This document shows positions 10,169 to 38,990 of a stretch of 64,000 bases of DNA, one piece after another (within the stretch, counting starts at the first letter, position 1; each line of letters opens with the position of its first letter). The stretch spans positions 186,001-250,000 of the forward strand of contig NZ_WEIC01000002.1 in assembly GCF_009184395.1 (NCBI RefSeq). The letters are read 5' to 3'. Below the pieces are notes generated by a model. The model searched no databases and was not told the DNA's origin. It saw nothing but the letters and a program-made list of their open reading frames with translations. Source of the DNA: Amylibacter sp. SFDW26 (lineage in GTDB: Bacteria > Pseudomonadota > Alphaproteobacteria > Rhodobacterales > Rhodobacteraceae). A program made the translations under genes and the position numbers.

Positions 10169-10498
10169 GGCTTAAATTACTTCGTACCAAACCAGTACCG
10201 TCAGCGCTCTTAAAAATCAGCTAAGACACTGTTAAATAATAGAAATTCAGAATCTGAGCAGCCCTTCGCTAAGGGGCAGGTTGCAGGTTCGAATCCCGCC
10301 AGAGTCACCACAAAAAACCTTTTAAAACAAATACCTTACGTTATTTTAATTAAAATTTTAATTCTATAACTAACGGGAATTTACGCAGAAAAATGAGCAA
10401 TAACGCATACAATCCGTACAATTCCCGTACAGTTAGTTCACGCTTCATTCAATTAGTTTTCAGAAAAAGATGGGGCACTTGAACTATCCTGTTTATTT
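10169..10498. other. Intergenic junction between the darTG cassette and the arginine/stress island
   Basis: About 330 bp without a gene. It contains the second direct repeat (10256-10434) with the tRNA remnant, and near 10186-10201 a further CGTACC...CAGTACCG pair resembling the CCGTACC elements inside both repeats. No ORF of coding character is seen. The FNR box and arcD promoter begin immediately to the right. Confidence 0.6.
10256..10434 (+). repeat. Direct repeat DR2 with degenerate tRNA-Arg 3' half (10256-10310)
   Basis: Positions 10256-10310 resemble nucleotides 23-77 of tRNA-Arg(CCT), ending in GTCACCA, followed by the same AACCTTTTAAAACAAA flank. The 5' half of the tRNA is missing and the anticodon loop lacks the universal T at position 33, so it is not a working tRNA. 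The T arm differs from the intact tRNA (GCAGG/CCCGC versus ACTGG/CCAGT), suggesting it came in with the element and is not a simple local copy. Confidence 0.78.
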
Positions 10499-10512
10499 TT
10501 GATTTCGATCAA
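10499..10512 (+). promoter_or_regulatory. FNR/FixK box upstream of the arc operon
   Basis: TTGATTTCGATCAA, a perfect TTGAT-N4-ATCAA palindrome. CATACT at 10534-10539 is a plausible -10 element, and a start near 10546 puts the box centre at about -41.5, the class II activator position. This implies activation of arcD and the genes behind it when oxygen is low. Confidence 0.85.
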
Positions 10513-10587
10513 AAAGTACAAATACTTTACTGACATACTTGGCCTTCAATTCGGTGACTAATCATTTAGAAACTCGAAGGAGATGTT

Positions 10588-12036
10588 ATGCCTGATGCTC
10601 ACATTCAACAAGAAACCTCATCATCACGCGCGGATTTAAAAGACCGATTTCCGTCTGCTTTTTCCATATTATTCGTTTTGATTTTAGTTATGTCCGCTCT
10701 CACATGGATTATTCCTGCGGGTCAGTATGACCGTGTTTCAAACCAAGCTTTGGGTAAAGATGTTCCAATCCCTGGCACCTATCAAGTTGTTGAAAGCACT
10801 CCGCAGAGTATCATTGATGTGTTTTTAGCCCCTATAGCTGGGTTTTATGACCCGTCTGAATATATCGCGAATGCTATAGATGTGTCTCTTTTTGTCTTAG
10901 TGATTGGTGGTTTTCTGGGGGTCGTCAATCAAACTGGCGCAATTAATACTGGTATTACATCGGCTATGACCCGCATGAAAGGGCGTGAAAAGTGGATGAT
11001 CCCTATTTTGATGGCGCTTTTTGCATTAGGCGGCACGACATATGGGATGGCAGAAGAAACTTTAGCATTCTATGCGATATTGATCCCAGTGATGATTGCT
11101 GCTGGGTATGATGCTGTGACGGGGGTTGCTGTCATTTTGATTGGTGCGGGGATTGGTGTTTTAGGGTCAACGATAAACCCGTTTGCAACAACAATTGCAT
11201 CTAATGCTGCAGGTATTCCGTTCACTGATGGTATGCCGCTTCGGCTGGCTATTCTAATATTAGGTTGGGTGATTTGTACGGCATTTGTCATGCGATATGC
11301 AGAACGTGTTAAGGACGACCCAAGTAGATCTATCGTTGCCGACCGACAAGAGGATAATATTACACATTTCCTTGGAGCGGGAGCTCAAGTTACGGAAGCA
11401 TTGTCCAAACGCCAAACTTTAGTACTTTTTCTGTTTGTAGCAACATTTGCGGTCATGGTTTGGGGGGTTGCATTGCAAGGGTGGTGGATGGCTGAAATGT
11501 CAGCCTTGTTCTTAGCGGCATCTCTGGTTGTTGGGATTGCAGGGTGGATCGGAGAAAAACCTTTTGTCGAAGCCTTTGTGAATGGTGCGCGCGACTTACT
11601 GGGTGTTGCCCTTATTATCGGGCTAGCGCGTGGCATCGTTGTTGTCATGGATGCAGGTAAAATTACAGATACTATTTTATTCACATCTGAAGAAGCTATT
11701 TCTGGGTATTCGGATATCGTCTTCATCAATGCGATGTATTGGATAGAGGTTTTGATGAGCTTCCTTGTGCCATCAACATCAGGGTTAGCCGTTCTAACAA
11801 TGCCTATTTTAGCCCCGCTTTCTGATTTTGCAGGTGTTGAACGGGACTTGGCCGTAACAGCCTATCAATCTGCTTCTGGTATTGTGAACTTGATTACACC
11901 GACATCTGCTGTTGTTGTAGGTGGGCTAGCCATTGGGCGGGTTCCTTATAACCGATGGCTGAAATTTATCGCACCACTTTTACTGATCTTAACTGTGTTC
12001 ATTATGGTCTGTTTAAGTATCGGAGTGGTGTTATGA
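10588..12036 (+). CDS. arcD: YfcC/ArcD-type transporter, probable arginine-ornithine antiporter
   Basis: A 482-residue polytopic membrane protein of the DcuC/ArcD/YfcC superfamily with about 12 hydrophobic segments, beginning with [20 protein letters not shown]. Family-like segments include [15 protein letters not shown] and a glycine-rich [17 protein letters not shown]. Its place as first gene of an arginine deiminase operon argues for arginine uptake coupled to ornithine export. The ribosome-binding site GAAGGAG lies at 10576-10582. Its stop overlaps the arcA start (ATGA). The exact substrate is inferred from context. Confidence 0.82.
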
Positions 12037-13253
12037 GTGACTTGGGTGTTTATTCAGAAATTGGAAAGCTGCATAAAGTTATTGTCTCTAGGCCGGGGCT
12101 TGCACACGAACGTTTGACGCCAGAGAACTGCAATTCCTTACTTTTTGATGATGTATTTTGGGTGGAGCAAGCGCGAAGAGATCACGCTGATTTTTGTCAA
12201 AAGATGGAAGAACGTGGCGTTGAGACCTTAGAAGTACGCGATTTATTAACCACAATCTTGAAACAAAAAAGATCCCGCAACTGGATTTTGAACAGATGTA
12301 TTACTGTTGACGATGTTGGTGTGGGAATGCTCGATGAGTTTTTAGGTTGGTGCGAGGCGATGCCCGCTGAAGAATTGGCTAATTTCCTGATTGGAGGAAT
12401 AGCAATTCATGACATCCCATTTACACCGAGTGGCATGGTTGCCTCTGTACTCGGGCCTGAAGGTTTCATATTGCCACCGCTCCCAAATATGATGTTCACC
12501 CGAGACACATCATGCTGGATATATGGCGGTGTAACATTGAATCCGATGCGCTGGCCTGCACGCCAACAAGAGATGCTATTAATGGCTGCTATTTATCATT
12601 TTCATCCAATGTTTCGCAAAATACCCGTTTGGTGGGGCGGTTATGATCAAAACCATAAATCCGCATATCTTGAAGGTGGTGATGTCATGCCTATCGGTAA
12701 TGGCGTAGTATTGATGGGAATGGGGGAACGCACGACGCCGCAAGCCGTAAGCCAAGTGAGTAATGCTCTTTTTACGGCCGGTGCAGCCGAACATGTTATT
12801 GGATGTGTTCTTCCAAAATCCAGATCAGCGATGCATTTAGATACGGTTTTCACATTGTGTGACCGTGATATTGCCACAAGTTTTACAGATGTTGCGCAGG
12901 CATTGACTTGCTTTTCTATTCGACCAGATAAGCGCGAAGGTCAGTTAGATATTCGCTTAGAAGATCGCCTTTTTTATGATGTTGTTTCAGAGGCATTAGG
13001 TATTCGGAAGCTGCGCATTATTCCAACGGGCGGCGATACATATGAACAAGCACGTGAACAATGGGATGATGGGAATAATGTTGTCGCCTTAGAGCCAGGT
13101 GTGGTGGTCGGATATGAACGCAACACATACACCAATAATCTTTTACGTGATGCTGGAATAGAAGTGATCACCGTACGTGGTTCCGAGCTGGGACGTGGGC
13201 GAGGCGGAGGACATTGTATGACTTGCCCCATCCAACGTGACCCTGTTGATTGA
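12033..13253 (+). CDS. arcA: Arginine deiminase
   Basis: A 406-residue enzyme that hydrolyses arginine to citrulline and ammonia, the first step of arginine fermentation. Seen: the N-terminal [40 protein letters not shown] and the C-terminal GGGHCMTCP, which carries the catalytic cysteine. All are hallmark motifs of bacterial ADI. I chose ATG 12033, which overlaps the transporter stop, rather than codons further upstream that lie inside arcD. Translation is probably coupled. Confidence 0.96.
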
Positions 13254-13267
13254 TAAAGGAATATATT

Positions 13268-14269
13268 ATGTCATTAAATCTTAGAAACAGAAGCTTTCTG
13301 ACACTACGGGATTTTACGGGTGATGAGATTGTATTTCTGTTAAAGCTCTCAGCTGATTTAAAGTCCGCAAAATATGCGGGTACTGAACAGCCACTTTTAA
13401 ATGGGAAAGAGATTGCACTAATCTTTGAAAAAGATTCAACGCGTACACGCGTAGGGTTTGAAGTTGCGGCGCATGATCAAGGTGCACATGTAACATATTT
13501 AGGCCCATCTGGATCACATTTAGGGAAAAAGGAAACCGTAAAAGATACCGCGCGCGTTTTAGGGCGTGTGTACGATGCAATTGAATATCGCGGGTTTGGA
13601 CAATCCATTGTTGAAGAATTGGCGCAATGGTCGGGTGTACCAGTGTATAATGGTTTGACCGATACATTTCACCCAACACAAATTTTAGCGGATTTGCTGA
13701 CTATGCGTGAACATAGCGATAAATCTTTGCGTGAAATTGCTTTTTGTTTCCTTGGAGATGTCGGGAACAATATGGGCGTATCTCTTTTAATAGGCGCTGC
13801 GAAACTTGGGATGAGCGTCAGGCTTTGTGGTCCAAAGTCATCTTGGCCAGATGCTCAAATCATATCAGATGCAAAGCTCGATGCAGCAAAGACTGGTGCT
13901 CGAATTACCATAACTGATGATTTGGAAAGAGGGATAAAAGGATGCGATTTTATATATACGGATGTCTGGGTTTCTATGGGAGAGCCAGAAGGTGTTTGGG
14001 CCGACCGTATTGCGCAGATGAAGCCATATCAAGTGACAGAAAAAGTAATGAAAATGGCTGGTAATCCTCATGTTAAATTCATGCATTGCTTACCTGCATG
14101 CCACAACTCCGATACGGAGATTGGTCAACTTATAAAGACAAAGCACGGATTAGAGGCACTTGAAGTAACCGAGGATGTGTTTGAAAGCCCTGCATCAATC
14201 GTTTTTGATCAAGCAGAAAACCGGATGCACACAATTAAAGCCGTTCTTGTGGCCACATTAGGAGGATAG
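13268..14269 (+). CDS. arcB: Ornithine carbamoyltransferase, catabolic
   Basis: A 333-residue enzyme that converts citrulline and phosphate to ornithine and carbamoyl phosphate. Seen: the carbamoyl-phosphate loop [10 protein letters not shown], the FHPTQILAD motif and FMHCLPAC near the C-terminus, with length and [13 protein letters not shown] typical of the catabolic type. ATG 13268 has AAAGGA 8 bp upstream, so I prefer it to the codon at 13250. It lies 14 bp after arcA in the arc operon. Confidence 0.95.
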
Positions 14270-14275
14270 GATATC

Positions 14276-15184
14276 ATGCGAGTTATAATTGCACTTGGTG
14301 GTAATGCTTTATTACGGCGCGGCGAGAGGATGACTGCGAAAAATCAACGCGTGAATATTCGTGCAGCAGCAAAGTCTATCGTTAAAATCATCAGAGATGG
14401 CCATCAAGTTGTCATAACCCATGGCAATGGCCCACAAATTGGTCTTTTGGCTTTGCAAATGGAACGGCAAAGTGACCCAACGGCCTTTCCTTTGGATGTA
14501 TTAGGGGCTGAAACCGATGGAATGATCGGATATGTTTTGCAACAAGAATTGGACAACCTGTTAGGTGAAAAGATTGAAATTGCAACCTTGCTTACACAAA
14601 TTGAAGTAAAGCCATCTGATACTGCGTTTTTTAAGCCAACAAAACCAATTGGCCCAATTTACACCGAAGAAGAAGCAAAGCGTCTAAAGCATCAACGCGG
14701 ATGGCATATAGCTCAAGACGGTGAGGCATGGCGCCGTGTCATTGCATCACCTAAACCTATTCGTATTCTTGAAATGGGTGTTATCCAAAAGCTTGTTAAT
14801 CTTGATGTTGTTGTTATTTGTGCAGGAGGTGGGGGTATACCCGTTGTAAGGCGGCGTGATGACAGTTTTTTTGGTGTAGAAGCAGTCATCGATAAGGATC
14901 GTGCAAGCTGCTTGCTTGCCGAAGGTCTGAAAGCAGATGCGTTGCTTATGCTTACAGATGTGGATGCCGTATATTCCGAATGGGGCAGTGATAATGCAAA
15001 GCCTATTCACCACATCACGAGCTCTGATTTAAAGCAAATGACTTTTGCAGAAGGCTCTATGGCACCTAAAGTTGAGGCAGCTATTCGCTTTGTTGAAAAA
15101 ACAGGAGGTGTGGCTGGAATTGGTGCACTATCCGATGCATCAGAAATTTTGAACGGAACAAAAGGTACTATTGTCAAACAATAG
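14276..15184 (+). CDS. arcC: Carbamate kinase
   Basis: A 302-residue amino-acid-kinase-family enzyme that makes ATP from carbamoyl phosphate, the energy-yielding last step of the arginine deiminase pathway. Seen: IIALGGNALLRRGE at the N-terminus, THGNGPQIGLL, and VICAGGGGIPVV around residue 180. Length and motifs are normal. It follows arcB after 6 bp. With arcA and arcB this gives a complete pathway for anaerobic ATP generation from arginine. Confidence 0.95.
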   Translation: MRVIIALGGNALLRRGERMTAKNQRVNIRAAAKSIVKIIRDGHQVVITHGNGPQIGLLALQMERQSDPTAFPLDVLGAETDGMIGYVLQQELDNLLGEKIEIATLLTQIEVKPSDTAFFKPTKPIGPIYTEEEAKRLKHQRGWHIAQDGEAWRRVIASPKPIRILEMGVIQKLVNLDVVVICAGGGGIPVVRRRDDSFFGVEAVIDKDRASCLLAEGLKADALLMLTDVDAVYSEWGSDNAKPIHHITSSDLKQMTFAEGSMAPKVEAAIRFVEKTGGVAGIGALSDASEILNGTKGTIVKQ

Positions 15185-15193: not shown

Positions 15194-15601
15194 ATGTTTA
15201 CAGCATTAAAGGCTGGCTTGTTTTACTTTCTAGTTATTTTCATTGCAGGATCTATTTTGGGAATTGGTCGCAATGTATTGCTGGTTCCATGGATAGGGGA
15301 AATTGCTTCAGTCCTTTGGGAAATCCCTGTCATGCTTTTTATTGCGTGGTTCGTGTCATCTTATGTCATCGAAAAACTCGAAGTAGAACCAACGATAATC
15401 GCAAGATTGATAATGGGTGGTGTTGCATTGGCACTTTTGATTGTCGGAGAATTAAGTCTGTCGATATATATGACCTATTTAACATCAGATATGTCTACTG
15501 CTTTATATCGCGATACGAAAAGTATTTTAGGTCTTCTTGCTCAAATTACAGCAGCATTTTTTCCTTTATTACAAAGCTACAAAAGAAAGACGTTTGATTA
15601 A
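15194..15601 (+). CDS. Small integral membrane protein of unknown function
   Basis: About 135 residues with four predicted transmembrane stretches (for example [19 protein letters not shown] and [17 protein letters not shown]). I do not recognise a catalytic motif. It is placed 9 bp after arcC and shares the arc operon orientation. AGGGG at 15183-15187 fits the ATG at 15194 better than the one at 15188. It could aid transport or pH adaptation, but nothing in the sequence says so. Confidence 0.7.
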
Positions 15602-15641
15602 GGTCAAAGCGTTACTTCTGAATATAATTTACGCAGGTCAT

Positions 15642-16367
15642 ATGCCTGTTTCTAAAAATAAGCCTAGGGAAATTTTCAAGATATCCCATCTCTCCAAGAT
15701 TTATCGAACTGGAGAAGTAGAAGTACGGGCAATGAATGATGTGTCTCTAGACATGATAGAAGGGGAAATGACGGTTCTTTTGGGACCGTCTGGTAGTGGG
15801 AAGTCAACCTTTTTAAATATTGTTGGAGGGTTGGATCAGGCAAGCAGTGGAACTGTATTTTTTAAGGATATGGAACTTACATCCTTTAATGAAAGACAGT
15901 TAACACGATATCGACGTGATCATGTAGGGTTTGTCTTTCAGTTTTATAATCTTATTCCCAGCCTGACAGCATGGGAAAATGTTGCATTGGTTACAGAGGT
16001 TTCGAAAAACCCAATGAAGGCTGGTGATGCGCTGGCAATGGTTGGCCTTGAAAACAGGATGACACATTTCCCTGCACAACTTTCAGGAGGCGAGCAACAA
16101 CGTGTTGCTATTGCGCGTGCGATTGCCAAGCGGCCAGAGGTTTTACTTTGTGATGAGCCAACGGGAGCGCTAGATTCCAAGACAGGCATTATCGTTCTTG
16201 ATGCATTGACAAAAGTGAATGAAGAGCTGGGTACAACAACCGCAATCATTACGCATAATGCGGGCATTCAGAAAATTGCCCATAGAGTCATTTCTTTTTT
16301 GGATGGCAAGCTTTCAAACTGTCACGAAAACAAATCGCGGATTAAGCCTGCAGAAGTGGTTTGGTAG
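15642..16367 (+). CDS. ABC transporter ATP-binding protein (LolD/MacB type)
   Basis: A 241-residue ATPase of the MacB/LolD group. Walker A is GPSGSGKST, the signature is [16 protein letters not shown], and Walker B is [12 protein letters not shown], the usual wording of FtsX-partner ATPases. I chose ATG 15642 ([10 protein letters not shown]); earlier in-frame codons lie in the preceding gene. It is followed after 2 bp by its FtsX-type permease and then by a HlyD-like adaptor, so the three form one system of the MacAB or DevABC kind, apparently in the arc transcription unit. Confidence 0.9.
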
Positions 16368-16369
16368 CC

Positions 16370-18733
16370 ATGCGCGTTCTTGATAGAAAAATAATTCGTG
16401 ATATCTGGCGTTTATGGGCGCAAGTTCTGGCCGTTGCATTGGTTATGGCATGTGGTGCAGCAACAATCATTATGGCTGTCGGGGCTTATCGGTCTTTGGA
16501 TGAAACACGTGACGCTTTTTATGATCGGTATAAGTTTGGGTCTGTCTTTGCCTCGGCTGTCCGGGCACCAAATCATTTGAAGTCAAGGATCGAAGCTATT
16601 TCGGGAGTATCTGGAGCAGAGCTTAGGATCGTTAAACCTGTTCTTTTGGATGTGATTGGAATGAAAGAACCAGGGTCTGGTATTGCGGTTTCAATACCAG
16701 ATCATCGCATGACTAAGGTGAACCAGCTTTATGTACGACAAGGTAGATTACCCGAACCAGGGCGTGGGGTTGAAGTTGCTGTTGTTGAATCATTTGCAAA
16801 GGCACATGGTTTTGTTCCAGGCGATCAATTTGGCACAATAATTAACGGAAAAAAACTAACGTTAAACATCGTTGGTATCGTTTTGTCGCCAGAGTATATT
16901 TATTCGCTTGGGCCAGGGGAAATGGTACCTAATCCCAAAATATTTGGAGTTTTTTACATATCTGAAGAAGTCTTGAGGGGGCTCTTTGATATGGAAGGGA
17001 GTTTCAATGATTTGAGCATTACAACAATGCGCAACACAGAGTTAGAAAGTGTCATCAAAGATATTGACGCGTTGTTGGAACCATATGGTGGAGTCGGTGC
17101 GTATGATAGAGAAGATCAAGCCTCGAATGCTTTCCTAGACGCAGAGTTAGATCAGCTTCGTGCTATGGCAAAAATTATCCCACCTATATTTTTATTTGTC
17201 TCCGCATTCTTAGTTAACATGATTTTATCACGATTGATTGCTCTTGAAAGAGAACATGTGGGTTTATTCAAGGCCCTTGGGTATGGCAATATTGCCATTG
17301 GTGGGCATTATGCAAAGCTGGTTATAGTGATTGCCATAATAGGTATCCTTATTGGGTCTGGTGCCGGTTTATGGCTTGGTATGGGTTTAACCCGACTTTA
17401 TGCAAGCTTTTACTCGTATCCATTTTTACTTTTCGAACAAAGTTATGATCTATATGTTTTGTCTGCTGGGATTACTTTAACCGCAGCACTCTCAGGAGCT
17501 GTGAAATCAATTTGGTCCGTTGTTATCCTTCCGCCTGCGGTTGCGATGCGACCTCAGGCACCGACACGTTATAAAAGCCTCTTTGTAGGGCGGATGAATT
17601 TCACGCGCATCTTTTCGCAACTGACAACAATGGCGTTTCGACATATTATAAGATGGCCCGTACGTTTTCTGATGACAACTTTTGGCACAGCATTGTCGGT
17701 AGCATTGCTGGTCACGTCTTTGTTTTCGTATGATTCAATTGAAGATATGATTGATGTTATATTCTTTCAAACGGACCGTCAGGATGTAACGCTTACGTTT
17801 TCTGATGACCGTGGGCAGGACGTTTTATGGCTGGTCAATAAATTACCTGGGGTGGTTAGGGTCGAACCCTTTCGAGCTACTCCAGTTAAACTTAAAAATG
17901 GGCACCGCACGATGCAAATGTCACTACTTGCCCTGTCGCATGAAACGGACTTATCGCAAATACTGGATATCGATTCAGCACCAATGGAGCCGCCAAAAAA
18001 CGGACTGGTTATATCAGAACGTGTGGCTGATAAATTGCATTTAAATCTTGGCGATTTGGTTGATGTGGTTCTGACCAAGAAAAGCAACCGTATTGCAAGC
18101 CTGCCTATTTCGGGAATAGCCCAAAGCTATGTTGGGTTAACGGCTTATATGTCGTTTGAAGCACTCAATCGTGTGATGCGTGATGGTCAAAGGGTATCTG
18201 GCGCGCGCATAAAAATTGACGAGGCAAAGCTTGATGAGTTTTATGAAGCGGTGAAAGAAACACCCGTGATTGCATCAACAGCTTTGCAAGATATTTCAAG
18301 GGATAAGTTCCGTGAAACCATTGAGCAAAACATCACAACGATGACATCCGTTTATATTGTACTTGCCGTTATTATTACATTTGGAGTGATTTATAATTCT
18401 GCCAGAATTCAGTTGTCTGAACGCGCAAGAGAATTAGCGAGCTTGAGAGTTTTTGGATTTACGCGGGCAGAAGTATCAAGTGTTTTGATGGTAGAACTCG
18501 CCATTATAGTTTTGCTTGCGCAACCTCTTGGGTGGTTACTTGGCTACGCATTATCGTGGTCAGTGGTGAAAGGGTTTGAAACCGATCTTTTCCGTATTCC
18601 TCTTGTTGTAAATGCAAATACTTTTGCATGGGCTAGCGTTGTCGTGCTGACTGCTGCGCTGGTTTCAGCCTTAATCGTCCGGCGTCGTATCGACCATTTG
18701 GACTTAATCAGCGTTTTAAAAACGAGGGAGTGA
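16370..18733 (+). CDS. FtsX/MacB-type ABC transporter permease
   Basis: A 787-residue permease with two FtsX domains. Hydrophobic segments lie near the N-terminus (LAVALVMACGAATIIMAVG), around 270-390 and in the last 120 residues, with large extracytoplasmic domains between them. This layout fits mechanotransmission ABC systems that export lipoproteins, lipids or peptides and not typical import permeases. ATG 16370 is preferred over TTG 16361. It starts 2 bp after the ATPase gene and ends 1 bp before the adaptor gene. Confidence 0.88.
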   Translation: MRVLDRKIIRDIWRLWAQVLAVALVMACGAATIIMAVGAYRSLDETRDAFYDRYKFGSVFASAVRAPNHLKSRIEAISGVSGAELRIVKPVLLDVIGMKEPGSGIAVSIPDHRMTKVNQLYVRQGRLPEPGRGVEVAVVESFAKAHGFVPGDQFGTIINGKKLTLNIVGIVLSPEYIYSLGPGEMVPNPKIFGVFYISEEVLRGLFDMEGSFNDLSITTMRNTELESVIKDIDALLEPYGGVGAYDREDQASNAFLDAELDQLRAMAKIIPPIFLFVSAFLVNMILSRLIALEREHVGLFKALGYGNIAIGGHYAKLVIVIAIIGILIGSGAGLWLGMGLTRLYASFYSYPFLLFEQSYDLYVLSAGITLTAALSGAVKSIWSVVILPPAVAMRPQAPTRYKSLFVGRMNFTRIFSQLTTMAFRHIIRWPVRFLMTTFGTALSVALLVTSLFSYDSIEDMIDVIFFQTDRQDVTLTFSDDRGQDVLWLVNKLPGVVRVEPFRATPVKLKNGHRTMQMSLLALSHETDLSQILDIDSAPMEPPKNGLVISERVADKLHLNLGDLVDVVLTKKSNRIASLPISGIAQSYVGLTAYMSFEALNRVMRDGQRVSGARIKIDEAKLDEFYEAVKETPVIASTALQDISRDKFRETIEQNITTMTSVYIVLAVIITFGVIYNSARIQLSERARELASLRVFGFTRAEVSSVLMVELAIIVLLAQPLGWLLGYALSWSVVKGFETDLFRIPLVVNANTFAWASVVVLTAALVSALIVRRRIDHLDLISVLKTRE

Positions 18734-18734
18734 T

Positions 18735-24132: not shown

Positions 24133-24140
24133 CTCATCAA

Positions 24141-29803: not shown

Positions 29804-29817
29804 TTGATTTCGATCAA
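29804..29817 (-). promoter_or_regulatory. Perfect FNR/FixK box upstream of the site-2 protease gene
   Basis: TTGATTTCGATCAA, identical to the arc operon box. Its centre lies 69 bp from the protease start codon, which allows a start near 29769 with a normal leader. Confidence 0.8.
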
Positions 29818-29941: not shown

Positions 29942-29955
29942 TTGAGTTAGATCAA
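29942..29955 (+). promoter_or_regulatory. FNR/FixK box upstream of the DUF442-DUF2267 pair
   Basis: TTGAGTTAGATCAA, 9 of 10 positions. TATTAT at about 29977-29982 can serve as -10, giving a start near 29990 with the box at about -41. Confidence 0.7.
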
Positions 29956-30373: not shown

Positions 30374-30426
30374 TTATCTTTTGTAACCTGAACTTGTTTA
30401 TATCTGCAAATGAAAGGAGATGAGAT

Positions 30427-31314: not shown

Positions 31315-31328
31315 TTGATTTAGATCAA
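31315..31328. promoter_or_regulatory. Perfect FNR/FixK box between divergent genes
   Basis: TTGATTTAGATCAA between the NTF2-like gene (minus, start 31281) and the polymer-forming membrane protein gene (plus, start 31395). Plus-strand geometry gives a start near 31363. Minus-strand geometry puts the start at about 31280, at the ATG itself. Confidence 0.8.
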
Positions 31329-31394: not shown

Positions 31395-32528
31395 ATGTAT
31401 AGGTATTTTCTGGCGGCGGTTTTTATCGTGCTCGCAATTACTCCTTTGGCGGCAGAGGAGAAAAAAGGTTACTTCGATTTCAATAAAGATCGTTTCTTAG
31501 CTGGAAGCACCATGGTCCAGGACACAGAAGGTGTGGATGATCTTTTCATGGCTGGTGAAACCGTTCGTAGTCAAAAGAATATCACTGGATCTGCACATTT
31601 GGCTGGACGCAAGATCGTCTCAACGGGTGACGTTGGTGGGGATGCTTATCTGGCTGGAATGGATGTATCATTGGATGGCAAGGTTTCTGGTGATGTTACC
31701 GTCAGCGGCTACAGCATACAGGTTGGAGAAGTCGCAGGCGATCTCAGGATGTCAGGCTCAAAGCTTGTTATTTCTGGCCCTGTTTCTGGATATGCGTTGA
31801 TTGCGGGTGAAGAGGTGAGGCTTGAAGCGGCCATCAAAGGTGATGTTAGCCTATCAGCTCGAAAGGTGAGCTTTGCCGATGGTGCTAAAATAGATGGGAA
31901 ATTAACTGTCTATGAGGAAAAAACAGGCGAAATAGAAATACCTTCGCAAGTAATTCCTGCAGAACGTGTAGACCGACGCGATATTTCCGAATGGTCTGAG
32001 GTGACTAAGGGATTAAAGGTTTGGGATTGGCGTGTAGCGTTATTACAGTTTTTAATTGGTGTAATTGTTATTGCGGGCATTGCGGCGTTGATAGCAGCGA
32101 TAGCACCACAGAAATTAGCAGACCTTCGTCGTGGTATTCTTGAACGACCCTTTCGAACACTCTGGTTTGGCATTCTGGCAGAGTCTGCGGTTGTGGGATC
32201 AACGATTATTCTAATGATGACAGTCATTGGTTTGTTATTGGCTCCTGCCACAGTATTTATTACACTGATTTTTGCATTTGCAGGTTACATTGTTGCAGCT
32301 TATGCCTTTGGTGTCGCGCTGCTCATGGCAGCAGGGAAACAAGAGCCGAATAGCATTGGATCAAGAGCTATAGCCGCGGGTGGTGGTGCGTTGGCAGCTG
32401 GGCTGATTGCCATGATACCGTTTATTGGATGGTTGTTTGTGTTATCGCTTGCTTTAACCGGAGTGGGTTCGATTGTAATTTGGCTGTTTCGTCCGAAATT
32501 TTTTGCATCTGCAGAAGCGACAGGATGA
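31395..32528 (+). CDS. Bactofilin-like polymer-forming membrane protein
   Basis: A 377-residue protein with a signal peptide (YFLAAVFIVLAITPLAA), then about 150 residues of regular short beta repeats in the style of the bactofilin/polymer-forming domain (GSAHLAGRKI, GDAYLAGMDV, GDVTVSGYSI, GDLRMSGSKL, GDVSLSARKV), then four hydrophobic segments in the C-terminal half. The repeat part would lie outside the inner membrane. Role unknown; envelope remodelling is a guess. A perfect FNR/FixK box lies upstream. Confidence 0.8.
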   Translation: MYRYFLAAVFIVLAITPLAAEEKKGYFDFNKDRFLAGSTMVQDTEGVDDLFMAGETVRSQKNITGSAHLAGRKIVSTGDVGGDAYLAGMDVSLDGKVSGDVTVSGYSIQVGEVAGDLRMSGSKLVISGPVSGYALIAGEEVRLEAAIKGDVSLSARKVSFADGAKIDGKLTVYEEKTGEIEIPSQVIPAERVDRRDISEWSEVTKGLKVWDWRVALLQFLIGVIVIAGIAALIAAIAPQKLADLRRGILERPFRTLWFGILAESAVVGSTIILMMTVIGLLLAPATVFITLIFAFAGYIVAAYAFGVALLMAAGKQEPNSIGSRAIAAGGGALAAGLIAMIPFIGWLFVLSLALTGVGSIVIWLFRPKFFASAEATG

Positions 32529-32597: not shown

Positions 32598-33269
32598 TCA
32601 TACATGAGCGAGATGAGGAGATACAATTACAGGACAGCGTGCCGTATTTAATATGTTGTTAATACCTAATTTCTTTGCGAGGTTATAAGGCATAATCACT
32701 AATGCTGAATTGGTCTTATGTAATTGTTCCAGAACATCTGTTGAATATGGAATGTTTTCTATTTTTAAGAATACTGTTTGTACCTGTAACTTATGGGCCA
32801 ATGATTTTGAAAGCTCATTGAGTTGCGGTGATGAGTGTGTTCCTTCTTCTATAAGGACAACATTGCCTCTACTCTTATTCAGCTTTGGGAAGCCATATAG
32901 AATTATGCTTTTACCCTTTGAGGATAGGGTCAGCAATGTTTCGGGAATATCATCAGTATGGTGGAAACTCCAATTCAACGCTTTTGATTGTGCTGCGCGC
33001 GACAGGGTTTTTTCATAAAATTGTGCATCTCTGTTGTATGCTTTTTGCAGCGCTTGACCGCCAATACCAGAACTGCCCCCAGAAAGAGATATAGCGCGTG
33101 TAAAAGGTAGGTCGGCGGCATCAAATGCATTCTGATCTTTCAAGAGATATGCCTTAATTCGGAGCTCTAACGTTTTAGCTAAAAATGCGGCAATCTCGAT
33201 TACAGAATTTGCATCAGCGAAACATTGGGCGCTGATTATGAGTTGTCCTTGTTCTTTTTCATCAGACAT
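32598..33269 (-). CDS. Divergent universal-stress-like protein
   Basis: A 223-residue protein whose last part (LVIMPYNLAKKLG, then ARCPVIVSPHL) resembles the end of a Usp domain, and whose N-terminus (LIISAQCFADANSVIEIAAF) resembles its first strand and helix. The ATP-binding glycine pattern is missing. It overlaps the end of the Lon-like protease gene by 8 bp and is translated with it. It is the third Usp-like gene of the island. Confidence 0.62.
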   Translation of the reverse strand: MSDEKEQGQLIISAQCFADANSVIEIAAFLAKTLELRIKAYLLKDQNAFDAADLPFTRAISLSGGSSGIGGQALQKAYNRDAQFYEKTLSRAAQSKALNWSFHHTDDIPETLLTLSSKGKSIILYGFPKLNKSRGNVVLIEEGTHSSPQLNELSKSLAHKLQVQTVFLKIENIPYSTDVLEQLHKTNSALVIMPYNLAKKLGINNILNTARCPVIVSPHLAHV

Positions 33270-35718
33270 TTTTCATCTCACTAACGATATCATTGGATGT
33301 GTCAGTTTTTTGGTATTTTTTGATCTGATCAGCAAACTTTAGGAGACGCATTTCGACTTTATGGTTGATTGTTCCTGTTTGAAATTGTCCAGCTTTATCC
33401 CGCATACCTGGTTTCGCATTCATCAAAAGTTCGATGCCCTCATCTACAGTTTCGATTGGAAAGATATGGAACTTTTTAATTTTCACGGCTTCAATAACAC
33501 GCGGTCTGAGCGCTAGGTTTTTTATGTTCGACTTTGGCATAATGACACCTTGTGTTCCAGTTAAAGCGCGTGAAGCACATACATCAAAAAAGCCTTCTAT
33601 TTTCTCATTAATCCCGCCGATTGGTTGGATTTTTCCAAATTGGTTAATTGACCCAGTTACAGCAAAAGATTGATCTATTGCGCATTCAGAGAGTGCTGAA
33701 ATCAATGCAAATAACTCTGCTGCAGATGCGCTATCGCCATCTACGCCCCCATAACTTTGCTCAAAAACGATACTGGCCCATAAAGACATCGGAACATCCA
33801 ATGCAAAATGTGTTGCCAAATAGCTGGATAAAATCAAAACCCCTTTTGAATGTAAGGGGCCGCCCAATTCAACTTCGCGTTCTATATCAACCACTTTACC
33901 TTTGCCTGCACGTACACGCGCCGTTAAGCGGGAAGGGCGACCGAATTGAAAGTCCCCGACTTTTAGGACTGATAAAGCGTTTATTTGTCCAACGACATCG
34001 CCAGATGTTTCAATGAGTAAAGTATCGCGATCTATAGCTTCATAAGTCAGGCGCTGGGGACGGTTTGCTCGGCTTTCAGCTTGTTCTATTGCAGTACTAA
34101 TATGCGCATCAGTTATCGTTTTAGATTTATTTTCAACGGCTAAAAAATTTGCCTCACAAATGGTATCCGAAAAGAACTGAACGTTAAGGGACAGTTTTTC
34201 GGCATCGTCTGCCAGTCTAGTTGCTTCAACAAGTAATCTTGAGATTGCTTTTTTACTAAGTGGTAATAAATTGTTTTCAGTGGTTATATTTTTCAAAACC
34301 TGTGTGAAGTTTTGTATGGTTTCATCAGAACTAAAAACACTGTCGTCAAAGTCTGCCTGAACTTTGAAAAGCTCAAGAAATTCTGGATCAAAAGCCGCGA
34401 GCAAATAATACAATCTGCGATCTCCTACGAGTGCAAAACGTATATTTAAGGGGATTGGGTCTGGTTCTAATGAAATTGTGCTTGATAAGCTAAGACGGTC
34501 TTGTGCTGATATAATCGAAATATTCTGGCTCTTAATGCACCGTTTCAAAGCATCCCAAGCAAAGGGTTCTGTCAGTACTTTGCGAATGTCCAGTACAAGA
34601 AAGCCACCGTTTGCCCTATGCAAAGCTCCCGGCCGGATCATCGTGTGGTCTGTTAATATAGCCCCCATTTCAGAGAAATGTTCAACATGGCCAACTAGAT
34701 TGGAAAGAGTGGGAAGGTCTTCTGTGATTACAGGTGCTGCTTTTGAAGCAGTAGCATCACTTGGGTGAATAATATTTACGGCATAAACATAATATTGGGG
34801 TTCTTTATAATGCTTAGTCGTTGCAACAGGGAACGCACCAGCATGAACCGCAGGTCCAGAGTTTAAAAATTGCTCTGCATTTTCAATTAAGTCTCTTTTC
34901 ACAGCGGCAAGGTATTCTGGCATCTTTGGTATATGCCCAAATTTCTTGAATAAATCACTGATGGCACTTTCAACACCACCCAATGCGACTTCGGAATTTA
35001 GTTTTTCAATGGCTCTACGATGATTTTTCTCATTCTCAGGGATTTGTTTTAACGCTATTTCCAAATGTTCCTGTACTGCTTTAATATCAGCTTCGATCAA
35101 TTCTTTTTCAGCATCGGGAAGTTCACTAAATTCATGCGGTTTTATGGGTTGGTCATCTTTCATGGCTGTTATTATGAACCCCATTGGGGTCCTTAATAAT
35201 GCGAGACCTTTTTCTTTTGCTTTTTCAATGACAAAACTGACGGCATCGTCACCTATTTGACCATACTCTTGTTCCATACTGCGTCGGTCATTTTGATAAG
35301 CATCCGCTTGGAATAATGCGGGGATTTCATTCGCAAGATCATCAACAAGATTTTGCATGGCCTTCTTCAAACGAATGGCTTGACCTGCAGGAAGTTGAAT
35401 TGCAATTGGTTTGTGTGGGGTTTCAAAATTATGGACATAAACCCAGTCAGAAGGTTCAGATTGCCTTTGGGCTTCTACCCTTAAAATTTCCATTACAGTT
35501 CGGTGTCTGCCACATCCCGTTTGTCCAAGCGCAAAAAGATTGAAATTGGGGTGCTTTATTCGCGCTGAGAACTTGATTGCATCTACTGCTTCTGAATGCC
35601 CCATCATACACATTGATTGTGTCATGTGATCAGTTTTCACAGTTTTATTTATAGTTTTGAAAGTTGCACATAACTCTGCTGCTTTTAGAGGTTTTACCTT
35701 TGAAGTTTTAATCAGCAT
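33262..35718 (-). CDS. Lon-like ATP-dependent protease (LonB/AAA_32 type)
   Basis: An 818-residue protease. The N-terminal ATPase part has a modified P-loop, LGQTGCGRHRT, where the usual Lys is replaced. Domains with SNLVGHVEHFSEMG and GALHRANGGFLVLD follow. The C-terminal Lon domain has the catalytic Ser in GDSASAAELFAL and Lys in GGINEKIEGFFDVC. I start at ATG 35718, with GAGGAAG upstream. It leads a two-gene operon with the Usp-like gene and has an FNR/FixK box 59 bp upstream. It probably degrades damaged or regulatory proteins under stress. Confidence 0.9.
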   Translation of the reverse strand: MLIKTSKVKPLKAAELCATFKTINKTVKTDHMTQSMCMMGHSEAVDAIKFSARIKHPNFNLFALGQTGCGRHRTVMEILRVEAQRQSEPSDWVYVHNFETPHKPIAIQLPAGQAIRLKKAMQNLVDDLANEIPALFQADAYQNDRRSMEQEYGQIGDDAVSFVIEKAKEKGLALLRTPMGFIITAMKDDQPIKPHEFSELPDAEKELIEADIKAVQEHLEIALKQIPENEKNHRRAIEKLNSEVALGGVESAISDLFKKFGHIPKMPEYLAAVKRDLIENAEQFLNSGPAVHAGAFPVATTKHYKEPQYYVYAVNIIHPSDATASKAAPVITEDLPTLSNLVGHVEHFSEMGAILTDHTMIRPGALHRANGGFLVLDIRKVLTEPFAWDALKRCIKSQNISIISAQDRLSLSSTISLEPDPIPLNIRFALVGDRRLYYLLAAFDPEFLELFKVQADFDDSVFSSDETIQNFTQVLKNITTENNLLPLSKKAISRLLVEATRLADDAEKLSLNVQFFSDTICEANFLAVENKSKTITDAHISTAIEQAESRANRPQRLTYEAIDRDTLLIETSGDVVGQINALSVLKVGDFQFGRPSRLTARVRAGKGKVVDIEREVELGGPLHSKGVLILSSYLATHFALDVPMSLWASIVFEQSYGGVDGDSASAAELFALISALSECAIDQSFAVTGSINQFGKIQPIGGINEKIEGFFDVCASRALTGTQGVIMPKSNIKNLALRPRVIEAVKIKKFHIFPIETVDEGIELLMNAKPGMRDKAGQFQTGTINHKVEMRLLKFADQIKKYQKTDTSNDIVSEMKNV

Positions 35719-35776
35719 GATGTGCTTCCTCGGGTGCGATACTGCTATAAAACTATTCAAATAAAGCGACCGATCA

Positions 35777-35790
35777 TTGATCTAGGTCAA
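35777..35790 (-). promoter_or_regulatory. FNR/FixK box upstream of the Lon-like protease gene
   Basis: On the minus strand TTGACCTAGATCAA, 9 of 10 positions. The centre lies about 41 bp before a start near 35742, leaving a 24-base leader that contains the ribosome-binding site. Confidence 0.75.
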
Positions 35791-35885: not shown

Positions 35886-37115
35886 TCACAATATCAAAGG
35901 CCCAATCAGTAATCCTAAGCAGGTTAAGGCGCCTAATACGGGGATTAAGATAGGAACAGTGAATAGGCCATCTTCGGTGGGTGTCTTGCGTAATTTCATC
36001 CATACAAGTGCAATATTAATTAAACAAAAGACACTAAGGTTAATCTGGGATGTCCATTCGGCCAATTGATCAAGCGGCACAAAGGCAACAAGGAATATCA
36101 CGAAAAGGCTAAGTATTAAGGTCGCTAAAATAGGTGTTTTTGTTACCTTGTTTAACTTAGAAAACATCTTGGGTAGTTGACCTCTGCGTGACAAGCCATA
36201 CAAAACGCGAGATGCCATAATCAGCTGGATTATGACGCCATTCAAAGTTGCAAATATAGCAATTAACGTAATTCCCAACGGAGAGATACCTGTTAGGCGT
36301 TCAAACAATAAACCAACAGGAGCTTTAGACGCACTCAGTTCTGATAAAGGTAAAACATTCAGTGCGACAAGTGTTATTAATACATAAAGTATTGTAACGA
36401 CGATCAATGTTATACCGATTGCAATCGGCATAATTCTAGCTGGGTTAATTGTTTCCTCAACGATATTGACGACGTCATCAAAACCAACAAAAGCGAAAAA
36501 CGCTATCAAGCTGGCGCTGAGTATTGCTGATAATGCAGGTCCATCGGTTAGTGTTGGGATTGATGCTGGTAACGTGGATAAAAGTGATGGCTCTTTGTGG
36601 AAACCTGCAACGATGATGATCAGTAACCCTAAAATTTCTATTACGGTTAATACACTTGCAAAGGTTACGCTTTCTTGGATGCCCCAACAGGCCAAGCCGC
36701 CCATTAAAATGACAATAATGACTGCCAATAGTGGGATAGGTAAATCAATCAATTGAGCAACATAGCCAGCAGACCCCAGGCTGATGGCTGAAGCGGCAAC
36801 ACTACCAGATAAAACAATAGAAAGCCCCGTTACCAAAGTAAGCCAAGTCCAGCCGAACGCTGCATCTACATAAGCGGCCTCACCTGCACTTTTGGGAATG
36901 CGGCTGGAAAGCTCTGCAAAGCTGCATGCGCTAAATGCCATAACAAAAGCAGCTAATAGAAAGGCAATGGGGGCGTATATACCCGCACGGGCGGCTGTTT
37001 CACCAACTAATACATAAATACCTGCACCGATAGTGACGCCTAGCCCATATAAAACAAGTCTTGGTAAACCAATCGCACGTTTTAATTCCACTTGATGTAG
37101 TGCAGCATTTTCCAT
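35886..37115 (-). CDS. APC-superfamily amino acid permease
   Basis: A 409-residue transporter with about 12 transmembrane segments. The N-terminal GLGVTIGAGIYVLVGE is the substrate-binding glycine motif of APC permeases, and FAELSSRIPKSAGEAAYV follows. The substrate is probably an amino acid or polyamine. In an island devoted to arginine catabolism, arginine, ornithine or putrescine are natural candidates, but nothing proves it. ATG 37115 is better spaced to AAGGA than ATG 37124. It follows the FixK-type gene by about 26 bp on the same strand. Confidence 0.87.
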   Translation of the reverse strand: MENAALHQVELKRAIGLPRLVLYGLGVTIGAGIYVLVGETAARAGIYAPIAFLLAAFVMAFSACSFAELSSRIPKSAGEAAYVDAAFGWTWLTLVTGLSIVLSGSVAASAISLGSAGYVAQLIDLPIPLLAVIIVILMGGLACWGIQESVTFASVLTVIEILGLLIIIVAGFHKEPSLLSTLPASIPTLTDGPALSAILSASLIAFFAFVGFDDVVNIVEETINPARIMPIAIGITLIVVTILYVLITLVALNVLPLSELSASKAPVGLLFERLTGISPLGITLIAIFATLNGVIIQLIMASRVLYGLSRRGQLPKMFSKLNKVTKTPILATLILSLFVIFLVAFVPLDQLAEWTSQINLSVFCLINIALVWMKLRKTPTEDGLFTVPILIPVLGALTCLGLLIGPLIL

Positions 37116-37141
37116 CGAGAACATTCCTTATGGCTGGTTAT

Positions 37142-37801
37142 TTAATGCTCGACTTCTGTAAGCCCTTGAAGAGCGCCTAAGTCATAAATGCAAACCTGAT
37201 TTATTTGGGGTAAACCTATAATGCCTTCTTGGCGTAATTTTGAAAAACAACGACTTACAGTTTCAATACTGAGGCCTAGGTAATCTGCAATGTCAGTGCG
37301 ATTCATAGGTAGGTCGTAACACACGCTTTTACCATCACGCTTGCCTATACGGTTTTGTAAAACGTTTAGAAAAGAAGCTACTTTTTCCATGGCTGATTTA
37401 CGGCCTAATAAAAGAAAGTGTTCGTGCATGAGTGTCAGTTCAGCTGCTGTATATCTTATAAGTGAATAGGCAAAATCAGTATCCGTTTTTTGATCAATGG
37501 CTTTTAATGTAACATCAGAAATTGCATCGCAATCATTATGATGGCACCCATCATGGTTTATCCCAATGATATCACCTGGGTAACCGAAGGAAACGATTTG
37601 TCTGCGGCCATCAGCTGTTAATTTATAATTACGCACAACACCTTCTACAACTTCATATAAACCTCTTGCCGTGTCTCCTTCATAGAAAATAGGTTGCCCA
37701 GTTTTTAGGCTTCTTAATTTGTTATTTTTTATAGGGTTGGGTTTGTTTGCAAGGAAATGATCAAACATAGGTTTTGAATTTTGTGAGTTATTTAAGTGCA
37801 T
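37142..37801 (-). CDS. Crp/Fnr-family transcriptional regulator of the FixK type
   Basis: A 219-residue regulator. The cyclic-nucleotide-fold domain spans about 20-130 (KTGQPIFYEGDTARGLYEVV). The C-terminal helix-turn-helix reads MNRTDIADYLGLSIETVSR, where Glu180, Ser183 and Arg184 match the FNR residues that contact TTGAT. The N-terminal cysteine cluster of FNR is absent, so it is more like FixK, but it has C86-HHND-C91 in the sensor domain and C185 directly after the recognition Arg. It is the obvious candidate for binding the ten palindromes of the island. Confidence 0.92.
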   Translation of the reverse strand: MHLNNSQNSKPMFDHFLANKPNPIKNNKLRSLKTGQPIFYEGDTARGLYEVVEGVVRNYKLTADGRRQIVSFGYPGDIIGINHDGCHHNDCDAISDVTLKAIDQKTDTDFAYSLIRYTAAELTLMHEHFLLLGRKSAMEKVASFLNVLQNRIGKRDGKSVCYDLPMNRTDIADYLGLSIETVSRCFSKLRQEGIIGLPQINQVCIYDLGALQGLTEVEH

Positions 37802-37927
37802 TTAATTTCTCCATTCATAAGGCTGGAAATAATTAACGATGCATCTGTAATGCACATATGATTAGAGTGTAATTGTTTGTAACGATTTGTATCTCTGTAC
37901 CTGCGTACCAAGCTACAAAAGCGAACA

Positions 37928-38347
37928 TCAGTGTTGTATACTTTCTAAATAGTTCGCTAAGGCAAGAAGATCAGCAGGTATCGGGGTTGAAATGCCGTCT
38001 TTCTCAACCTGAATAAGAGGGCCAAGGTCGCCTTCTCCGAAGTCAGGCATAACTTCACTGGTATGGCCATTTTGTTTCAAGCCGTAGATTTTACTCATGA
38101 CATAATCACGTGGAAAAGCACCGTTATTAGCTGCTGAAAGCTTTGTTAAACTTGGTGGTTTCATACCAAGCCCCAAAGACGCTGGACCAGCACCGCTTGC
38201 ATCATAGTTATGGCATTCTGCACATTCTTTTAAAAATAAGTGCCTGCCATCTTTTATATTCATTTTTGTGATATAGTGATCAGGGGTGCAGCCAAATAAA
38301 ACCGCCAATATAGCAACGTAAATTAGTAAAACTGTTCCCCTTAACAT
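37928..38347 (-). CDS. Lipoprotein c-type cytochrome
   Basis: About 139 residues. The N-terminus is a lipoprotein signal ending in AVLFGC, so the protein would be anchored in a membrane facing the periplasm. One heme site, CAECH, is present with a likely distal Met in the C-terminal half (SEVMPDFGEGDL). I chose ATG 38347, placed 8 bp after AGGAGG. It could carry electrons to a terminal oxidase or reductase. An FNR/FixK-like box lies upstream at 38408. Confidence 0.85.
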   Translation of the reverse strand: MLRGTVLLIYVAILAVLFGCTPDHYITKMNIKDGRHLFLKECAECHNYDASGAGPASLGLGMKPPSLTKLSAANNGAFPRDYVMSKIYGLKQNGHTSEVMPDFGEGDLGPLIQVEKDGISTPIPADLLALANYLESIQH

Positions 38348-38407
38348 AACCATGCCTCCTAAGTATGCCATTCTTAAAAGATCGTAATGTTTTATTTTTA
38401 AATTGAA

Positions 38408-38421
38408 TTGATCTATGTCAT
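38408..38421 (-). promoter_or_regulatory. Degenerate FNR/FixK box upstream of the cytochrome c gene
   Basis: TTGATCTATGTCAT on the plus strand, 8 of 10 positions. The geometry (centre about 41 bp before a start near 38373) matches the better sites, which is why I keep it. Confidence 0.5.
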
Positions 38422-38990
38422 TCGCAGTATGATCCGAGTGATTATCATTATTAGATTTTCATCTTTACACATTCATTAATCATGCAATTTCCAGAAATCG
38501 TTCCGTTTAGAAGTTTCAAAATACATACGCAGCTTCAATTAATACGCGCGTTTTCGTATCCAGATGCTTCTTTCTCAGATCGAAAGCTTGGTTATCAGTG
38601 TAGTTTGTAAACTCATAAATTGGATCAAATCCAAGGATCCCTGTTATTTTAAAATGTTCGATTGAAGTCAGCAAGCGTACTGCATCGCAAAAACGCTCAT
38701 AGTAGCAACAATCAAGCAGAAATACGCGAGTCAATTCGTACAAACTAAGTACAGCAGGAAACTGAAAAGGATGTATAATATTGACTGTAATTAAAAAACG
38801 CCTGCCCCTTCTTAAGAGGCAGGTTGCAGGTTCGAATTCCGCCAGGGTCACAAATTCACATTAAGTTGCGACTTACCATTTTGCGACATAACTCTACCTA
38901 ATTAAGCCCCCCCAACTTACCTGATTAACTTTGCTCAACCGAAACGCAATAAATTTGCTAGACTCAGTTCGACCAATATGCAAATGATGA
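38422..38990. other. Gene-poor right boundary of the island
   Basis: About 570 bp with no gene I can defend. It contains the tRNA-like fragment at 38801-38852 and, after it, TTGCGAC repeated 16 bp apart (38868-38890). A 111-codon open frame on the minus strand (38516-38851) runs through the tRNA fragment and has no recognised domain. The cobalamin riboswitch starts at the right end. Confidence 0.5.
38801..38852 (+). repeat. Degenerate tRNA-Arg 3' fragment, probable right attachment site
   Basis: CCCCTTCTTAAGAGGC, GGTTGCAGGTTCGAATTCC and GCCAGGGTCACA match the anticodon arm, T arm and acceptor 3' strand of tRNA-Arg(CCT). The GTTGCAGGTTCGAAT part is shared exactly with the fragment at 10281-10295 and differs from the intact gene, so the two fragments share an origin. 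The orientation is the same as the intact tRNA. No 5' half is present. Confidence 0.72.

Follow-up and report, generated by a model that had tools for sequence, protein, structure and literature searches.

Can a low-oxygen regulon be carried as a single piece of DNA, complete with its sensor, its relay, its transcription factor and the promoters that they control? The question is raised by a 64,000-nt stretch of Amylibacter sp. SFDW26 (hereafter the window; contig NZ_WEIC01000002.1, positions 186001-250000 of a 3,136,101-bp genome in 12 contigs), in which an earlier note had read a portable low-oxygen regulon. We analyzed the interval 10256-38851 of the window (~28.6 kb) and conclude, from sequence inference on the window, its boxes and its relatives, that it is probably a genomic island targeted to a tRNA-Arg(CCT) gene and carrying a self-wired low-oxygen stress regulon. 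Judged in this way, the regulon is real, mobile-looking and self-wired, and its predicted signal is low oxygen. Domains were annotated with Pfam and NCBIfam, against which 29 interval proteins were scanned; G numbers denote genomes (G019, same genus; G048, sister genome) and L numbers extracted loci.

Results

FNR/FixK boxes are concentrated in the interval and stand before its genes

Ten TTGAT-N4-ATCAA-like sites had been claimed for the interval, and all were recovered at their coordinates and with the claimed match quality: four perfect (10499, 23085, 29804 and 31315), five with one mismatch (19938, 23581, 28586, 29942 and 35777), and 38408 as the sole one with two. An eleventh box at 15594, overlooked earlier, precedes the ABC ATPase gene, its centre lying 41.5 nt before ATG 15642, provided that this ATG and not TTG 15537 is the start. 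The further claim that the sites lie before genes stood for nine of the ten, which have a candidate target, but not for 19938, which has no evident promoter target because the genes flanking it are convergent. Measured from its centre, each of 10 of the 11 boxes has a candidate start codon at a distance of ~41-83 nt, the Lon-like gene requiring the downstream ATG 35718; box 31315 is in promoter position given a SnoaL start at ATG 31281, its score as coding having come from a longer SnoaL start. The one-mismatch sites 22359 and 27855 lie within genes and look like chance occurrences. The boxes, listed without strand, and the genes beside them are as follows.

10499..10512: perfect FNR/FixK box, 82.5 nt ahead of the arc permease gene
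10588..15184, plus strand: arginine deiminase operon, with a YfcC/DcuC-type permease, arcA, argF and arcC (Pfam, NCBIfam)
15594..15607: FNR/FixK box, 41.5 nt before ATG 15642
15642..19931, plus strand: ABC ATPase, FtsX/MacB permease and HlyD genes (Pfam)
23085..23098: perfect FNR/FixK box, between divergent DksA-like and baeRF12/Host_attach genes
23581..23594: FNR/FixK box, 56.5 nt before hsp20
23644..25905, plus strand: hsp20, uspA and fxkR (Pfam), FxkR being 25159-25905
27499..28551, minus strand: Na/Ca exchanger family protein, its gene immediately upstream of hfixL (Pfam)
28586..28599: FNR/FixK box, 41.5 nt before the exchanger gene
28611..29741, minus strand: M50 site-2-type protease with a CBS domain (Pfam)
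29804..29817: perfect FNR/FixK box, 69.5 nt before the M50 protease gene
29942..29955: FNR/FixK box, 68.5 nt before the BLH-phosphatase/DUF2267 pair
30017..30858, plus strand: BLH-type phosphatase and DUF2267 protein, the latter a cluster marker (Pfam)
31315..31328: perfect FNR/FixK box, 73.5 nt before the bactofilin-like gene and also before the SnoaL-like gene
31395..32528, plus strand: bactofilin-like membrane protein (Pfam score under cut-off)
32598..35760, minus strand: LonB/LonC-type protease and an overlapping downstream Usp-like gene (named from its sequence, without a Pfam match)
35777..35790: FNR/FixK box, preceding the Lon-like start ATG 35718 by 65.5 nt
37928..38371, minus strand: c-type cytochrome (domain annotation of the protein), with a weak FNR box at 38408-38421

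Genome-wide, exact TTGAT-N4-ATCAA occurs 25 times in 3.136 Mb, and four of these copies are in the interval; TTGAY-N4-RTCAA occurs 47 times, seven of them in the interval, while a reversed-pattern control gave six in the whole genome. The density of TTGAY-N4-RTCAA is thus 19-fold above that of the rest of the genome (Poisson P 1.3e-7, ~1.4e-5 allowing for 110 windows), and the equal density that the earlier note had named as fatal to its idea is not what the genome holds. Allowing one mismatch, the interval has 12 sites; eight of these fall between genes, where dinucleotide shuffles predict 0.25.

The cargo named earlier (ATP from arginine, Hsp20, Usp, a Lon-like and a site-2 protease, an ion exchanger and a cytochrome c) is present and mostly boxed, except that UspA1 is without a box and that of the cytochrome is weak. 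Hsp20, uspA and fxkR possibly form one operon, with gaps of 113 and 82 nt, and box 28586 could drive hfixL as well as the exchanger gene, which would give feedback. The Usp content is two Usps and the Usp-like protein lacking a Pfam match; the remaining interval proteins belong to the Exo_endo_phos (EEP), DksA-like and SnoaL families (Pfam/NCBIfam), and the membrane proteins TM137 and TM225 gave no Pfam or NCBIfam match. The one-mismatch box at 19938-19951, in its convergent intergene, may reflect either chance or a small RNA.

The interval encodes a putative hFixL-FxkR-FixK relay

The reading of a FixL-like kinase, an OmpR-type regulator and a FixK-type protein proved correct, and it can be refined to an hFixL-FxkR-FixK relay with a K-box. 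Besides fxkR, its elements, with the gene behind fixK, are the following.

25915..27444, minus strand: hybrid FixL, with PAS, HisKA, HATPase and receiver domains (Pfam)
35886..37124, minus strand: APC-family permease, 17 nt behind fixK (Pfam)
37142..37801, minus strand: FixK-type regulator of the Crp/FNR fold, with an ETVSR recognition helix and no N-terminal Cys cluster
37868..37893, minus strand: K-box of three 6-mers in 10-nt steps, the predicted FxkR site of fixK

By its domain order and PAS alignment, the kinase has a FixL-type haem PAS, a kinase core and a C-terminal receiver, and it is on these grounds a hybrid FixL with a putative haem-PAS. The PAS aligns to the FixL structures 1d06 (8e-30) and 1dp6 (5e-29) and retains the EHDEY and IIGIGR blocks, which have roles in haem and oxygen binding; the window protein thus keeps both the haem-ligand region and the PAS arginine of FixL. 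FxkR is 50-62% identical to the partners of fixK in relatives and ~45% identical to rhizobial FxkR proteins; in a quick tree, from which L111 (too short) and L115 (duplicate) were left out, all kept FxkR rows fell on one side of 13 paralogues, with a support of just 53.

The Glu-Ser-Arg set claimed for the FixK-type protein is borne out by its ETVSR helix, and the NCBIfam FixK model scored 149.9 bits, under its cut-off of 300. The FixK proteins of L062, L063 and L067 read ETVCR instead. An H-x-DC-type motif (such as HHTDC) was seen in the sensor domain of 19/22 FixK proteins, the exceptions being L078, L080 and L108; among held-out FixK matches the strict form occurs in 15/24, others having HHTEC, YHTEC, YHAEC or HHAGC and five none. 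This motif is a possible redox or metal site.

The strict K-box, GTTACA-N4-GTTACA, was fixed as the motif before the search and afterwards confirmed in two papers; FxkR binds it before fixK in the rhizobial cascade, as given in the accessible parts of PMC7888657 and PMC4999443. Before the window fixK there are two overlapping one-mismatch copies, the sole matches with at most one mismatch in the window, against 14 in the genome. No K-box was found before the window fxkR, where the best candidate has four mismatches, and a K-box-like repeat at 29876-29901, with three mismatches, was set aside as too weak. The K-box of the window thus stays at fixK and not at fxkR, despite the 11 kb that separate the two genes. 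The contig of the window also encodes, at ~40.6 kb, an FnrL-type protein with a Cys cluster (CSDCPIQHRAVC) and LETVSR, with boxes of its own nearby, so that dual input from FixK and FnrL is likely.

Two operator types separate well in related clusters

FNR boxes with at most one mismatch were surveyed at 17 loci of relatives, using approximate gene starts. They precede the bactofilin-like gene in 14/14, hsp20 in 11/12, Host_attach in 8/9, hfixL in 11/14, the exchanger gene in 4/5 and the M50 gene in 9/15 cases, as compared with 0/16 for fixK and 0/15 for fxkR; shuffles gave 0-0.1.

A common K-box form in relatives is GATACA, and a relaxed motif, GWTACA-N4-GWTACA with at most one mismatch, was chosen in the course of the analysis. 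It was found before fixK in 20/22 loci (expected 0.10), 76-124 nt before the start, and in 1/235 of the upstream regions that belong to neither fixK nor fxkR (summed rows). For 26 held-out loci (29 minus the duplicate L115 and minus L131 and L136, whose fixK promoter is unreadable), the K-box was recovered before fixK in 20/26 (expected 0.08); its strict form was there in 8/26, and FNR boxes numbered 0/26. By these motif counts the two operator types, K-box and FNR box, separate well.

Copies of a tRNA-Arg 3′-end bound the island

The elements that delimit the island are given below.

8078..8154, plus strand: intact tRNA-Arg (CCT), the integration site (ARAGORN, Rfam)
8361..10168, plus strand: DarT/DarG-type pair, between the tRNA and the island and outside the regulon (Pfam DarT, Macro)
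10256..10310, plus strand: left attachment (att)-like copy of the tRNA-Arg 3′-end, left island boundary (direct repeat with the tRNA region)
38804..38851, plus strand: att-like copy of the tRNA-Arg 3′-end that marks the island boundary on the right (repeat comparison)

A 175-nt direct repeat joins 8100-8274 and 10256-10430 (72%), and the right copy is 83% identical to the tRNA and, over 39 nt, 92% identical to the left copy. The DarT/DarG pair has a copy of the tRNA 3′-end on either side, an arrangement that suggests two elements stacked at one site. GC content is 0.41 inside the island and 0.47 in the flanks.

The site was compared in full with one close relative, the sister G048. Its flanks are conserved (UbiB 94%, ZnuC/B/A 89/96/92% identical), and the right flank is 84.5% identical over 504 nt, starting ~25 nt past the right repeat. 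Between the same tRNA-Arg and znuCBA, G048 has a different set of genes over ~10 kb, metabolic from their reading, at the end of which stands a copy of the tRNA 3′-end (93%). The FxkR-like protein that comes closest is 36% identical in G048 (38% in G020 and 37% in G014). Repeats of the tRNA 3′-end are therefore present at both boundaries and the block is absent from this site in the sister. This is the opposite of the strict conservation that had been named as evidence for core DNA, an explanation rejected on the different cargo at the same site. From reading the translations, the G048 cargo (L096 1371-10985) looks like a hydantoinase-type catabolic cluster with a LysR-type regulator. A stretch around CCGTACAATTCCCGTAC at 10401-10433 recurs 70-125 nt inside the left ends of both the island and the sister insertion (L096 1277-1309), with 94% identity over 33 nt between window and sister, and by eye also after the intact tRNA (~8240-8270); it could be an arm-type integrase site.

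Over 7900-39500, Rfam at gathering thresholds returned nothing but the tRNA and, outside the island, a cobalamin riboswitch. The riboswitch, at 38981-39194 just right of the island, lies upstream of znu-type ABC genes.

Related clusters recur with varying cargo

The same-genus genome G019 carries the genes in a different order, namely Usp, DnaJ, CbpM, TM225, EEP, Usp, Hsp20, DUF2267, FixK, FxkR, hFixL, Host_attach, Usp, quinone-reductase-like, M50, VIT-like, NNR-like and DksA, where the names DnaJ, CbpM, VIT, NNR and quinone reductase come from reading the sequences and not from a family search. In a scan of named genomes, 15/20 loci hold DUF2267, FixK and FxkR together (L059, L061-L065 and L067-L075, L061 being the G019 contig again); hFixL is present in all 15 and M50 in 14, while the cargo varies. 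Relatives with the cluster are mostly Rhodobacterales, with one Cohaesibacteraceae bin. In a family survey FxkR reached E <= 1e-70 in 32/295 genomes, and DUF2267 was found in 6/33 genus genomes, the own genome being included in both counts. DUF2267 marks partial clusters in the Amylibacter genomes G001, G013 and G024, all drafts or metagenome bins, which lack a close FxkR (best identities of 43, 36 and 39%). In a tree of the three regulators (L067, L074 and L075 omitted by choice, L060 and L077 dropped as not having the full set of three proteins), the window and G019 as one clade were rejected (p-AU 7.9e-7), in an approximately unbiased (AU) test that involves a long branch and an odd composition for the window.

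Plasmids carry the regulators as well. The Sulfitobacter plasmid pDSM110093_a, typed mobilizable, has the regulator set with a cbb3 oxidase and Usps, and a Terrarubrum plasmid has it with a cbb3 oxidase; a Tropicibacter plasmid has FixK and FxkR, hFixL not being among the annotated neighbours. On the plasmids with a cbb3 oxidase, loci L076 (9580-23168) and L078 (14075-26501), FixK-FxkR-hFixL are paired with cbb3 oxidase operons. On a Sinorhizobium meliloti plasmid (L080 4729-14500) the set lies beside two Usps, an acetate-CoA ligase-type gene and argF, so that a stress-linked version exists in rhizobia too. A match on the Ruegeria pomeroyi megaplasmid (46.5%) was rejected as a different system, with copper genes adjoining and fixK not among its annotated neighbours.

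The linkage to a tRNA gene claimed earlier holds for the window, where copies of the tRNA-Arg 3′-end stand at both ends, but the other clusters do not show it in general. In the fetched flanks of 19 loci, ARAGORN made one tRNA call (a 94-nt tRNA-Ala, L059). The G019 cluster lies at a tRNA-Gly, with no att-like copies beyond the tRNA itself, in a contig that begins inside the cluster and with the far end outside the data; its tRNA linkage is proximity only.

Discussion

In the mechanism that we propose, a fall in oxygen would lead the putative haem-PAS kinase hFixL to autophosphorylate and then to phosphorylate the OmpR-type FxkR, which would bind the K-box before fixK and raise expression of fixK together with the APC permease gene behind it. 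FixK would then bind the TTGAT-N4-ATCAA-like boxes, its predicted targets comprising arginine ATP supply, membrane efflux, Hsp20, the Usps and the M50 and Lon-like proteases, and further the Na/Ca exchanger, DUF2267, the bactofilin-like protein and cytochrome c. Positive feedback is proposed because hfixL, and perhaps fxkR, lie behind FNR boxes.

Several points weigh against this interpretation. FNR and FixK sites are indistinguishable by sequence, and the genome has an FnrL-type protein. Total counts of sites with at most one mismatch, coding ones included, exceed the shuffles also in the right flank (7 vs 1.9) and in the core FnrL region L039 (6 vs 1.9), which makes the dinucleotide null too permissive for totals and leaves intergenic counts as the fairer test. 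In the window, box 19938-19951 is without a target, UspA1, TM225 and EEP are without a box, and the cytochrome box has two mismatches. Among relatives, boxes are rare before UspA1 (4/13), the arc permease (1/4), TM225 (1/10) and DUF2267 (1/17) and absent before EEP (0/10), VIT-like (0/7) and CbpM-like (0/7) genes, and L059, L067 and L074 have no intergenic box with at most one mismatch, per the open reading frame caller used. The counts in relatives are not all independent, since some boxes are common to a divergent gene pair (hsp20/bactofilin-like, Host_attach/hfixL), gene starts were placed approximately and L073-L075 are nearly copies of one another; the shuffles behind both their FNR-box and their K-box expectations preserve base composition only. 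The K-box motif is not enriched genome-wide (101/107 matches vs 231/230 for the reversed control at up to two mismatches), is missed at L062 and L078 of the 22 loci and at six of the 26 held-out ones, and the window layout, with fixK 11 kb from fxkR, is unusual against the divergent pair of relatives. The haem His is missing in L070, 1/18 readable relatives, and the long branch and odd composition of the window in the AU test belong here too. Finally, no integrase was found by Pfam/NCBIfam among the 29 interval proteins scanned; the island would thus be at best non-autonomous and would depend for any mobility on functions supplied in trans.

An alternative that we regard as unlikely but far from negligible is that the island genes answer mainly to the chromosomal FnrL at the same boxes, the island relay being minor or a matter of fine tuning. 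The FnrL-type protein with its Cys cluster and LETVSR is indeed encoded in the genome with boxes nearby, FNR and FixK sites are described as virtually identical in alphaproteobacteria in the accessible part of PMC2908626, and the FnrL of Dinoroseobacter shibae controls usp genes according to that of PMC5398030. Such control leaves unexplained why fixK keeps its K-box even after its separation from fxkR, as in the window, and why FNR boxes avoid fixK (0/16), fxkR (0/15) and held-out fixK (0/26).

We consider it improbable that the block is an old chromosomal stress cluster of Rhodobacterales, lost in many lineages and never a mobile island. Similar clusters across many genera, the missing integrase among the 29 proteins and the one doubtful tRNA call near 19 other loci would fit that history, which is opposed by the tRNA 3′-end copies at both ends, the different cargo at the site in the sister, the plasmid-borne regulator sets and the same-genus copies that are not sister to each other. 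That the kinase senses redox, nitric oxide or another PAS ligand, the unit being a general stress regulon, seems similarly improbable to us: haem binding by hFixL is a sequence prediction and the His region is degenerate in L070, against which stand the alignment of the PAS to FixL haem domains (8e-30), with the EHDEY and IIGIGR blocks kept, and targets that include arginine catabolism. Arginine catabolism yields ATP without respiration. Scarcely credible is a chance origin of the boxes as palindromes in AT-richer DNA. The GC content (0.41 vs 0.47) and the above-null totals elsewhere speak for it; it is rejected on the genome-wide density and the intergenic count (8 vs 0.25 expected) and is already contradicted by the survey of relatives, in which the same promoters are boxed at mostly higher GC.

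The hFixL-FxkR-FixK cascade is already known from rhizobia. In Rhizobium etli and R. leguminosarum, as far as the accessible parts of PMC7888657 and PMC4999443 describe it, the system is alike in its hybrid FixL, OmpR-type FxkR, Cys-less FixK and K-box, in FixK targets with TTGAT-N4-ATCAA anaeroboxes and in plasmid clusters; there the targets centre on fixNOQP, fnrN and symbiosis. The window differs in its Rhodobacterales host, among whose relatives a GATACA form of the K-box is common, in its stress and arginine genes and its single interval bounded by tRNA repeats, a difference narrowed because a stress-linked set exists on the S. meliloti plasmid. The core FixK regulon of Bradyrhizobiaceae, in the portion available of Dufour 2010 (PMC2908626), shares Hsp20, ABC and HlyD transport, CBS, cytochrome c and FixLJ genes as predicted targets, but it is a regulon and not an island, and FixK is given there as generally restricted to Rhizobiales. 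In Burkholderia, the lxa locus is a 50-gene cluster with six Usps, alpha-crystallin and cytochrome c that is linked to anoxic persistence, and its proposed regulators carry locus tags outside it (BCAM0049 for FixK, BCAL2210/2211 for FixLJ), in the text accessible of PMC6127331; a FixLJ-FixK system is reported from B. dolosa in that of PMC5234846. The window, by contrast, has sensor, relay and factor inside and att-like ends. Likened by description, the lxa locus appears to be the nearest packaged low-oxygen analogue found.

Anr of Pseudomonas is a genome-wide regulator that places Usp genes under FNR-type control. The mycobacterial DosR regulon is a hypoxia-induced set with alpha-crystallin and Usps; the comparison with it made earlier holds for logic alone, by analogy, homology of regulator and sites being outside it. 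PMC6127331 mentions the DosR regulon too. Dinoroseobacter FnrL likewise has Usp genes under FNR-type control, but as a genome-wide regulator not bundled with its targets (PMC5398030, accessible part), and partial texts report a microaerobic small heat shock protein under an anaerobox in R. leguminosarum (PMC11784457) and a usp gene under an Fnr box in Sphingopyxis (PMC7713065). No description of the cluster in Rhodobacterales was found among the titles and abstract beginnings listed (in one search 40 of 231 papers), most subscription journals lying outside the search. The apparent novelty is that one Rhodobacterales interval with att-like bounds brings together sensor, relay, factor, operators and targets.

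More tentatively, and with slightly more doubt than belief, we suggest that the whole regulon, with sensor, relay, factor, both operator classes and targets, travels as one integrative unit which across Rhodobacterales has been repeatedly reassembled with different stress cargo while its K-box/FNR-box wiring was kept, so that gain of the island would confer a ready-made low-oxygen survival programme. The usual view is that a regulon is scattered across the genome and that its sites evolve one at a time; with a self-wired regulon on an island, the origin of new regulons in a recipient would become directly testable, because relay and targets would come and go together. The hFixL-FxkR-FixK relay would also reach past nitrogen-fixing symbiosis into marine bacteria and into persistence at low oxygen, and bacteria may be able to exchange a dormancy-like low-oxygen programme as a single package.

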